A program made the translations under genes and the position numbers. A stretch of DNA of 64,000 nucleotides, taken from NCBI RefSeq assembly GCF_014635585.1, contig NZ_BMDC01000002.1, forward strand, positions 186,001 to 250,000, read 5' to 3'. The DNA is from Rothia aerolata (GTDB lineage: Bacteria > Actinomycetota > Actinomycetes > Actinomycetales > Micrococcaceae). The notes below the pieces were generated by a model. That model searched no databases. It was not told the DNA's origin and saw only the letters and a list, made by a program, of their open reading frames with translations. This document shows, piece by piece, positions 36,410 to 49,668 of this stretch; positions within the stretch are counted from its first letter, which is position 1; every line of letters begins with the position of its first letter.

Positions 36410-38635
<2,226 letters not shown>

Positions 38636-38710
38636 AGTGGGCTGTTATCTAGGGAAAACCGACAGCGAGGTGGCGTTTGTCGCTCATATTGTGTGACCTG
38701 AGTAACTAGA

Positions 38711-38755
38711 TTTGCGCCCTGTGGTCAATTTTTGACCCGGGGCGCAAAATTTTTT
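38711..38755 (+). terminator. Terminator after ligA
   Basis: Outer 9-bp stem (38711-38719 with 38740-38748) and inner GGTCAA/TTGACC pair, followed by a T6 run. Confidence 0.85.
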
Positions 38756-39224
38756 AAAAATTTTTTTTCGGCACCCGAGGCCTTAAAGATTGCGTTTCGA
38801 TAACGAAAGTAACGGTTTGGTAAACAGACTACTGACTTTTTTAAAGCCCGAGAAATCAAGGAAGTCGGCGGTGTTAAGGCTGAGACAGCAAAATTTTGCT
38901 CAGCCTGTCAGAAAAAAGTCAGCAGGCTGTTGAATCGTGCTGGTCAATGTGTGATGTCTCAAAAAGTGGTTGGCGGAACCCAAATCGTTACAGTATCGTT
39001 ATCAACGAACGAAATGCCCGAGAGAAAATCTCGAGGGAAAAACACAAGTTCAAGGTTCTTGGTTCACCTCATAGAACCTTGAATAATATGCCGGGTTTTG
39101 CCGCACACCTGAGTCCGTCTACAGGGCAAAACCTCAAACAGATACCCAATAAGCATCTAGGGTAGACGGCGACGCAAAGAAACCGGGGGACCGGCGGAGC
39201 GTTAGGTGGCCTTCATGGAGCATT
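38756..39224 (+). ncRNA. Long structured leader upstream of the Rpf gene
   Basis: Almost 470 bases without a protein gene, between the ligA terminator and the Rpf GTG. It contains several perfect inverted repeats: an 11-bp stem (38832-38842 with 38912-38922) enclosing a GGCTGAG/CTCAGCC hairpin (38878-38905); an 11-bp hairpin (39049-39059 with 39073-39083); and an interlocked pair, 9 bp (39094-39102 with 39125-39133) and 8 bp (39115-39122 with 39162-39169), which has pseudoknot or switch geometry. A GGCAAAACC and a GACGCAAAG box lie in the last part. Rpf genes of other Actinobacteria are controlled by c-di-AMP riboswitches, but I do not see that consensus here. The promoter is not clear; part of the region may lie upstream of the transcription start. 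Confidence 0.5.
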
Positions 39225-39965
39225 GTGAAGAAGACTTCAATTCGCCGTAACGTAACCCGCACCGCAGCAGCAGTTGTTCTCGGTGGTTCCGCAGCAGCAG
39301 CTTTCGCTGTTCCTGCAAACGCAGCATCCGTAGAGACCTGGGATGCACTGGCACAGTGCGAGTCCGGTGGTAACTGGTCCATCAACACCGGTAACGGCTT
39401 CTCCGGCGGTCTACAGTTCACTCCCTCAACCTGGGCTGCTTTCGGTGGCACCGGTTCACCCACCAACGCTTCCAAGGCTGAGCAGATTCGCGTTGCTGAA
39501 AACGTACTGGCTGGCCAGGGCTGGGGCGCATGGCCTGCTTGCTCCGCAAAGCTGGGTCTCACCGCTTCTGATGCATCGGGCACCCCCAACGTAGCTCCCG
39601 CTCCCAAGCCTGCAACCGTAGCACCTCAGGCTAACCAGGTTGAAGAGGTCAAGGCTCCTTCAGCTCCCGTAGTTCAGGAAGTTCCCGCAGCACCTGCTCA
39701 GGAAGCACCTGTAGCTGAGGCTCCTGCTCCCGCAGTCGTTGAGGCTCCCGCTGCTCCCGTAGCTGAAGCACCTGCAGCACCCGCTGTTCAGGCTCCCGCA
39801 GCTAAGGGCACCCAGTACACCGTTGTTGCAGGCGACACTCTCTCCGAGATCGCTCTGGCACACGGTATCTCTGACTGGACCGTTCTGGCAGCTGCAAACG
39901 CTGACGTTGTACCCAACCCCAACGTGATTGAGGTTGGTCAGGTTCTGACTATCCCCGCTGTCTAA
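39225..39965 (+). CDS. Resuscitation-promoting factor-like transglycosylase with LysM
   Basis: 246 residues. Sec signal peptide (1-33, 'AVPANA-A'), then an Rpf transglycosylase domain of about 75 residues: 'WDALAQCESGGNWSINTGNG' with catalytic Glu46, 'GGLQFTPSTWAAFGG' and 'VLAGQGWGAWPACSAKLG', with the paired cysteines 45 and the later one. A long Pro/Ala/Val-rich spacer ('APAPAVVEAPAAPVAEAPAA') crosses the wall and a LysM domain (about 196-245, 'YTVVAGDTLSEIALAHGISD') binds peptidoglycan. It should cut the glycan strands of peptidoglycan and help cells leave dormancy or divide. GTG start with GGAG only 4 bases away, a tight spacing that may matter for control by the leader. Confidence 0.95.
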   Translation: MKKTSIRRNVTRTAAAVVLGGSAAAAFAVPANAASVETWDALAQCESGGNWSINTGNGFSGGLQFTPSTWAAFGGTGSPTNASKAEQIRVAENVLAGQGWGAWPACSAKLGLTASDASGTPNVAPAPKPATVAPQANQVEEVKAPSAPVVQEVPAAPAQEAPVAEAPAPAVVEAPAAPVAEAPAAPAVQAPAAKGTQYTVVAGDTLSEIALAHGISDWTVLAAANADVVPNPNVIEVGQVLTIPAV

Positions 39966-48097: not shown

Positions 48098-48211
48098 GGT
48101 CATGAGAGCCAGTGATAAGCCCCAGCTTACTGGCCGGCAACCCTCCACTCGCGGTGGGGTGCCCTGGGTGAAGACCGGGCACAGTTCATCCGTTCTGTGC
48201 AAGCGCGGGGA
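48098..48211 (+). ncRNA. SAM riboswitch, SAM-IV type
   Basis: The aptamer begins GGTCATGAGAGCCAGTGATA (P1 5' strand, K-turn-like region), contains 'TGGCCGGCAACCCTCCACTC' and 'GCGGTGGGGTGCCCTGGGTG', and closes P1 with AAGACC (48171-48176). This is the SAM-I/IV core. The downstream hairpin CACAG/CTGTG and the AAGCGCGGGGAC tail (to 48211) match the extra 3' pseudoknot element that distinguishes SAM-IV, a form known from Actinobacteria. It should shut metY (and perhaps metX) when S-adenosylmethionine is plentiful. 48213-48321 is the expression platform, with a GATGCTCC and GGAACATC pair and the metY RBS; no T-rich terminator is visible, so control may be at translation. Confidence 0.93.
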
Positions 48212-48321
48212 CGATGCTCCAGAATCTTCTGAGGAACATCGTGAACCCTTCCGAGTAGATAACGAGCACCGGAAGATTCAGGCATGCGGCCCCAACACCG
48301 AACAAGATATTGGAGCAAAGC

Positions 48322-49668
48322 ATGAGTGCAAACCAGACCGTACCCACCCCCGAAAACCCCGACGGCTGGGGTTTTGAAACCAAGCAGATTCACGCGGGCC
48401 AGAGCCCTGACCCTGCAACCGGCGCACGAGCTCTACCCATCTACCAGACCACCTCCTTCGTCTTCAAGGATTCAGAGCAGGCAGCCAACCGCTTTGCTCT
48501 GTCTGAGCTGGGCCCGATTTATACCCGCCTCAATAACCCCACCCAGGAAGTCGTCGAAAACCGTATTGCCGCTCTCGAGGGTGGTGTGGGAGCCCTTCTT
48601 CTGGCATCGGGCCAGGCAGCCACCACCTACTCAATTCTCAATATCGCCGGTGCAGGCGACCACATTGTGGCATCGCCCTCCCTCTACGGCGGTTCCTATA
48701 ACCTGCTGAAGTACACCCTGGCCAACCTGGGCATTGAGACCACCTTCGTGGAGAACCCCCTGGACATTGAGCAGTGGAAGGCCGTGGTTTGCCCCAACAC
48801 CAAGGCCTTCTTCGGTGAGACCCTGCCCAACCCCCAGGGCGATGTGCTCGATATTGAAAACGTGGCGGCCGCAGCCCACGAGGCAGGCGTGCCCCTAATC
48901 GTCGATAACACCATCCCCACCCCCTACCTGCTCAACCCCATCAAGTTTGGCGCAGACGTGGTGGTTCACTCCGCCACCAAGTACCTGGGCGGCCACGGCA
49001 CCTCAGTCGGCGGTGTGATTGTAGACTCCGGTAACTTCGACTACGGCGCAGACCCCGAAAAGTACCCCCTCTTCAACACCCCTGACGAGGGCTACCACGG
49101 CCTGGTCTACGCCCGCGATTTGGGTGCCGACGGCGCGTTTGGAGTCAACCTCTCCTACATCCTCAAGGCCCGGGTTTCCCTGCTCCGTGATTTGGGTTCC
49201 TCCATCTCACCCACCAACGCCTTCAACATCGCAATCGGCCTGGAAACCCTCTCTCTGCGCATTGAACGTCACATCGAAAATGCCCGCAAGGTCGCAGAAT
49301 TCCTCGAAAACCACGAGGACGTGGAGTCCGTTACCTGGGCAGGCCTCGAGTCCTCCCCCTACTACGAGCTCGCCCAAAAGTACATTCCCAACGGCCCCGG
49401 CGCCGTCCTCGGCTTCACCCTTAAAAACGCCGACGCCGCCACCGCCAAGAAGTTCGTGGATTCACTTTCCCTGCACTCGCTGCTGGTCAATATCGGCGAC
49501 GTGCGCTCGCTGGCGGTGCACCCGGCCTCCACCACGCATTCGCAGTCATCGGTGGAAGAGCTCGAAGCGATCGGTATTAACCCCGCCTTTATCCGTCTCT
49601 CAGTGGGAATTGAGAGCATCGAGGATATTCTGGCTGACCTCAAACTCGGCTTCGACGCTATCCGCTAA
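48322..49668 (+). CDS. metY: O-acetylhomoserine sulfhydrylase/aminocarboxypropyltransferase MetY
   Basis: 448 residues from ATG 48322, which has GGAG six bases upstream. PLP enzyme joining sulfide to O-acetylhomoserine to give homocysteine. Motifs: 'GFETKQIHAGQSPDPATGAR', 'PIYQTTSFVFKDSEQAANRF', 'GPIYTRLNNPTQEVVENRIA', the phosphate site 'LASGQAATTYSILNIAGAGD', the Asp in 'PLIVDNTIPTPYL' and the PLP Lys in 'VVHSATKYLGGHGTSVGGV'. Then 'SLLVNIGDVRSLAVHPASTT', where the conserved Arg for substrate carboxylate follows. It sits behind a SAM riboswitch and in front of metX, so the pair makes homocysteine. Confidence 0.96.
   Translation: MSANQTVPTPENPDGWGFETKQIHAGQSPDPATGARALPIYQTTSFVFKDSEQAANRFALSELGPIYTRLNNPTQEVVENRIAALEGGVGALLLASGQAATTYSILNIAGAGDHIVASPSLYGGSYNLLKYTLANLGIETTFVENPLDIEQWKAVVCPNTKAFFGETLPNPQGDVLDIENVAAAAHEAGVPLIVDNTIPTPYLLNPIKFGADVVVHSATKYLGGHGTSVGGVIVDSGNFDYGADPEKYPLFNTPDEGYHGLVYARDLGADGAFGVNLSYILKARVSLLRDLGSSISPTNAFNIAIGLETLSLRIERHIENARKVAEFLENHEDVESVTWAGLESSPYYELAQKYIPNGPGAVLGFTLKNADAATAKKFVDSLSLHSLLVNIGDVRSLAVHPASTTHSQSSVEELEAIGINPAFIRLSVGIESIEDILADLKLGFDAIR

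Follow-up and report, generated by a model that had tools for sequence, protein, structure and literature searches.

The Rpf-LysM gene of Rothia aerolata is preceded by a real, widespread cis-regulatory RNA, a pseudoknotted variant of the known orphan class lysM-Actino (RF03090) and not a new class. Its fold, the conservation of that fold, its exclusive association with one gene and its overlap with the start region of that gene are established by the comparisons described below. We consider it likely that this leader controls translation initiation of the Rpf-LysM protein, with an effector shifting the balance between the folded and opened forms. The RNA and its target were located in a stretch of 64,000 nucleotides (the window), and their parts are listed in Table 1.

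TABLE 1 Parts of the Rpf-LysM leader and its target, in window coordinates
Feature	Position	Strand	Remarks
MtrA-type direct repeat GTTACAGTATCGTTATC	38987..39003	+	Presumed promoter element
Optional hairpin	39049..39083	+	Directly 5' of P1; arms 39049-39059/39073-39083, 11 bp in the window
lysM-Actino-type cis-regulatory RNA (short form)	39084..39224	+	RF03090, E=8.8e-15; model R1, E=9.9e-32
P1 5' arm AUGC	39088..39091	+	Partner GCAU 39220-39223
Pseudoknot strand 1 GGUUUUGCC	39094..39102	+	Partner 39125-39133; 9 bp, perfect; covariation
P2 5' arm CACC	39106..39109	+	Partner GGUG 39205-39208
P3 5' arm CCGUCUAC	39115..39122	+	Partner 39162-39169; 8 bp, perfect
Pseudoknot strand 2 GGCAAAACC	39125..39133	+	Inside P3 loop
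P3 3' arm GUAGACGG	39162..39169	+	Partner 39115-39122
P4 hairpin CCGG-GGGA-CCGG	39183..39194	+	Stem 39183-39186/39191-39194; GNRA-type GGGA loop, near-invariant
P2 3' arm GGUG	39205..39208	+	About 17-20 nt 5' of start codon
Shine-Dalgarno GGAG	39217..39220	+	Last G shared with P1 3' arm
P1 3' arm GCAU	39220..39223	+	Ends one base 5' of start codon
Secreted Rpf-type transglycosylase, C-terminal LysM, 246 aa, GTG start	39225..39965	+	PF06737, 4.8e-32; PF01476, 2.9e-10

The original prediction had placed the leader at 38756 to 39224. Comparison among close Rothia relatives limits RNA-level conservation, and with it the functional RNA, to the much shorter interval 39084 to 39224, where identity was 70 to 90%, versus 43 to 57% in 38771 to 38975 and 26 to 40% in 39016 to 39087. 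The longer interval does contain several inverted repeats, as had been described, but the first of these belong to the terminator region of ligA or to a poorly conserved stretch; ligA stops at 38635, and a terminator-like repeat lies beyond it at 38711 to 38748. The predicted 11-bp hairpin directly upstream of P1 is present. We asked whether the motif includes this hairpin as a conserved element and found little support: the stem at this site in relatives measured 6.4 bp versus 5.0 bp by chance, and it is missing from some genera. An 89-amino-acid open reading frame with a TTG start (38896 to 39165), which overlaps the leader, had no Pfam match.

The direct repeat at 38987 to 39003 was 75 to 95% identical among close Rothia relatives, far above its surroundings. 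Of 86 leaders, 30 carry the MtrA consensus (PMC5650626), GTTAY-N5/6-GTTAY, no more than 300 nt upstream of the RNA, compared with 0.05 expected; the usual distance is ∼70 to 100 nt. Such MtrA-type repeats are common to many Rothia and Kocuria-type leaders. This pattern suggests that MtrAB may control rpf transcription and that the promoter may lie just downstream of the repeat, inside the interval first taken as leader; most of 38756 to 39015 would therefore be outside the mRNA.

At the curated cut-offs of Rfam, the interval 39084 to 39224 gave no match. Under permissive settings it matched RF03090, a family listed without known function, from end to end (E=8.8e-15, 63.7 bits); the gathering score of 153.8 bits was not reached, and the leader is accordingly a homolog by E value and not a formal member of the family. 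The score falls short because ∼75 nt of the RF03090 model between P2 and P3 are missing from the leader, and in the alignment 71 positions of the 215-nt model were unfilled there. The consensus helices P1, P2, P3, and P4 of RF03090 are all present with covariation support, and the downstream product contains PF01476, as expected for a family found upstream of LysM-domain genes in Actinobacteria. RF03090 and our leader have in common the order of the four helices and a similar 3' sequence ending in GGAGCAU. Two Rothia leaders (L032 and L033) are of the long form, which the Rfam cut-off accepts and which carries additional sequence between P2 and P3; a pseudoknot is possible there too (GGUUCUACC/GGUAGAGCC of L032). 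The RF03090 model at E≤1 found matches in 108 of 200 Micrococcaceae genomes and scored above its cut-off in 2 of the 200. The short form is the commoner one. Thus, the new class of leader that had been proposed is instead a form of an existing class that the cut-off misses. The lysM-Actino motif was reportedly first described by Weinberg et al. in 2017; our literature search, whose reach did not extend to that paper, found no mention of lysM-Actino. The window also holds an ordinary SAM-IV riboswitch (RF00634, 105 bits; 48098 to 48211, + strand), ∼100 bases upstream of an open reading frame (48310 to 49668) named from sequence as a PLP-dependent sulfhydrylase-like protein.

Covariation was evaluated in alignments A4 (63 diverse leaders) and A1 (28 short-form leaders), which were fitted to the nested structure and not to the pseudoknot; a further alignment, A5 (20 copies from genera without a DAC domain), is considered below. 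In A4, 93.9% of pair cells were standard, compared with 28 to 51% when partners were slid out of register, and 22 of 26 pairs showed changes on both sides. All five helices, the pseudoknot included, covaried in these homologous leaders, among them the two interlocking stems for which a covariation check had been proposed at the outset; none of 500 shuffles equaled any covariation measure, a count that is not a probability, as sequence relatedness was only partly controlled. By helix, 93.7% of P1 cells were paired, with both-side changes in three of four pairs; P2 was 98.4% paired, some diverged copies having CCCC/GGGG instead; covariation was seen in all nine tested P3 pairs; and P4 was 99.2% paired, with all four pairs covarying. 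Folding of the single leader sequence gave a z score of −1.2, which is not significant.

The two interlocking perfect repeats of the original prediction are found where it had placed them, as the 9-bp pseudoknot and the 8-bp P3. Pseudoknot pairs form in all 28 leaders of A1 (a few rows with one mismatch), in either of two registers: the helix has no bulge in a Rothia subgroup that includes the window and a bulged A elsewhere. The prediction had offered either a pseudoknot or a switch between two folds. The pseudoknot is upheld by its covariation, but a two-fold switch is not needed, because both stems covary and fit one fold; P3 and the pseudoknot are compatible parts of a single pseudoknotted structure, not alternatives to each other.

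To describe the distribution of the RNA, we used a covariance model built from the 28 short-form leaders (model R1). It detected the RNA in 271 of 398 Micrococcaceae genomes and 22 of 32 genera, and beyond the family in 29 of 396 genomes of an order sample and 7 of 297 of a class sample; the strong hits were all Micrococcaceae, and because some genomes were searched with stricter filters, a missing hit in these need not mean that the RNA is lacking. Among named genomes, it occurs in Rothia, several Arthrobacter, and a Kocuria, and a Candidatus Nesterenkonia gave a weak match. In Micrococcus-type and some other genera, the gene is present but no RNA was detected. R. aerolata has a single copy, and a few genomes have two matches (G230, at G230:C1:9530 and G230:C1:4350274; G1000; G877; and G182). 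The RNA lies directly 5' of an Rpf-LysM open reading frame in all 87 loci of set A2, where the start codon falls between 3 nt upstream and 13 nt downstream of the RNA end. Two genomes (G061 and G117) lack both the RNA and the full-length gene, and their genus-mates have both.

The gene often carries a different RNA elsewhere. The c-di-AMP riboswitch RF00379 (ydaO/yuaA) takes the same position before Rpf-LysM genes in other lineages and also controls cell wall hydrolases. We found it directly upstream of the corresponding gene (the closest homolog) in four other families of the order, and also at Rpf-LysM genes of Streptomyces, Embleya, Actinoplanes, Actinopolymorpha, Jiangellales, Frankiaceae, Humibacillus, and Lapillicoccus; other named loci in the same batches had neither RF00379 nor a lysM-Actino-type RNA. 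None of the Rpf-LysM loci tested carried both. Within Micrococcaceae, RF00379 is present in 105 of 131 genomes, and none of 30 such loci encodes an Rpf catalytic domain; by eye, the products resemble M23, NlpC/P60, and transglycosylase-like proteins. The only c-di-AMP riboswitch detected in the R. aerolata genome itself (L001; G000:C1:1211169-1211317, − strand) lies upstream of a 205-amino-acid secreted NlpC/P60-like protein. In Micrococcaceae, a different RNA occupies the rpf gene. The wider spread of RF00379 suggests that replacement ran from RF00379 to the lysM-Actino type.

c-di-AMP synthesis bears directly on what the RNA might sense. All 33 tested genomes with the canonical RNA encode the DAC domain (PF02457). 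It was not found in 25 tested genomes from genera g2, g3, g33, g35, g37, g42, and g48 (for example, G035, G036, G067, G069, G071, G076, and G082), and whole Micrococcaceae genera are thus apparently without c-di-AMP synthesis. By the resemblance of their leaders to those of named loci, assessed by eye, g33 probably corresponds to Nesterenkonia and g35 probably to Micrococcus. One of these genomes, G082 (g48), has a c-di-AMP riboswitch match (E 8e-11), yet no DAC-domain protein was found in it. A diverged copy of the lysM-Actino-type RNA is present in 16 of the 25 DAC-less genomes (g2, g3, and most of g33), and the copies examined are positioned at the Rpf-LysM start. In A5, 90.8% of nested pairs were formed, versus 34 to 49% in slid controls, and the pseudoknot averaged 9.4 pairs, versus 5.7 in shuffles; this mean is conservative, as it retains one row (L304) that is anchored too early in the sequence. 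The canonical and DAC-less groups share core loop bases (GA 39179-39180, GGGA 39187-39190, and GAG 39197-39199), and the GGGA loop of P4 is 94 to 100% conserved, including in genera without the synthase domain. P1 and the Shine-Dalgarno bases are well conserved in the canonical group only (80 to 100%); P1 spans a mere 4 to 5 bp, and its AUGC/GCAU form is not retained in the diverged copies of g2, g3, and g33, in which the mode of control may differ from the canonical one.

These data allow several identities for the RNA to be weighed. It is extremely improbable that the leader is a diverged ydaO or c-di-GMP-I aptamer. The first idea draws on the shared gene position in other families and the second on a few letters in common with c-di-GMP-I (GEMM-I, RF01051), namely, GGCAAAACC and GACGCAAAG, but neither RF00379, for which at least 38 bits are needed, nor RF01051 gave a match up to E=10 in 38640 to 39260, and model R2 had no hit in L001 or in the rpf leaders that RF00379 controls. 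The leader and RF00379 have no sequence or structure match, as the original prediction had held in separating this leader from the c-di-AMP riboswitch. Its comparison with c-di-GMP-I proved coincidental: the supposed box GGCAAAACC is a pseudoknot strand that varies freely between species, conservation of the supposed arm is limited to CGC...GA of CGCAAAGAA, and the common letters are mostly not conserved in homologs. A structurally unrelated second class of c-di-AMP riboswitch, replacing the ydaO type at the Micrococcaceae rpf gene, is quite unlikely. We favored this reading at first, given the gene position in other families, the 0 of 30 Micrococcaceae RF00379 loci with an Rpf catalytic domain, the DAC domain in 33 of 33 genomes with canonical RNA, and the precedent of Streptomyces coelicolor rpfA, which is controlled by c-di-AMP (PMC10117811). 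However, the RNA is carried by 16 DAC-less genomes that cannot make c-di-AMP by any known route, and their aligned copies are structurally intact. Because an intact RNA is kept without the synthase, c-di-AMP is unlikely as the effector unless specificity has changed. A literature search found no mention of a c-di-AMP-II riboswitch. The effector is probably something other than c-di-AMP.

Two further readings dispense with a small-molecule ligand or with switching. A regulatory protein or the ribosome might bind the pseudoknot and block translation, a reading that accords with the overlap with the ribosome-binding region, the control of a single gene family, and the narrow taxonomic range. We regard it as doubtful: autoregulation is implausible for a secreted enzyme, no partner protein was identified, and the compact core, GNRA-type loop, and conserved unpaired bases look more like a ligand-binding RNA. 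Alternatively, a constitutive structure could set mRNA stability or translation rate; a structured leader whose position ahead of a secreted protein is fixed could work without an effector, but conserved unpaired bases and a pseudoknot that covaries across genera exceed a simple stability hairpin, and we judge this explanation unlikely.

The reading that we prefer is control of translation initiation by the leader fold. The compact fold consists of P1, P2, P3, and P4 plus the pseudoknot, which joins the linker of P1 and P2 to the loop of P3. In it, P1 takes up part of the Shine-Dalgarno region and stops a single base short of the GTG, and P2 is inside the ribosome footprint, so that 30S loading would be blocked (folded, OFF); opening of the fold would allow the enzyme to be made. 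Control at initiation is likely because P1 shares a G with the Shine-Dalgarno sequence and comes this close to the GTG. The GGAG ends 4 bases before the GTG at 39225, as had been reported originally, and is 96 to 100% conserved in canonical copies. In some canonical copies the start codon is 6 to 13 nt past P1, and therefore weaker occlusion is expected in these. No intrinsic terminator was found inside the RNA on the + strand, which favors translational over transcriptional control. An effector would tip the balance between the folded and open states, and a small molecule is likelier than a protein because the core is compact and has conserved unpaired bases. We infer translational control, its sign, and the existence of an effector.

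For RNA annotation, the curated Rfam cut-off hides nearly all lysM-Actino members, and the class can now be given one target throughout (Rpf-LysM), a pseudoknot supported by covariation, and an overlap with the ribosome-binding site. The family also offers a natural experiment, in that the same gene has a c-di-AMP riboswitch elsewhere, and the lysM-Actino-type RNA is kept in genomes without c-di-AMP synthase. Tentatively, a riboswitch class may have taken over the rpf gene of Micrococcaceae, sensing a signal of wall growth or resuscitation other than c-di-AMP and masking the translation start. The leader RNA is a testable candidate for a new gene control switch, and an orphan RNA becomes a testable question about the control of resuscitation-promoting factor synthesis.
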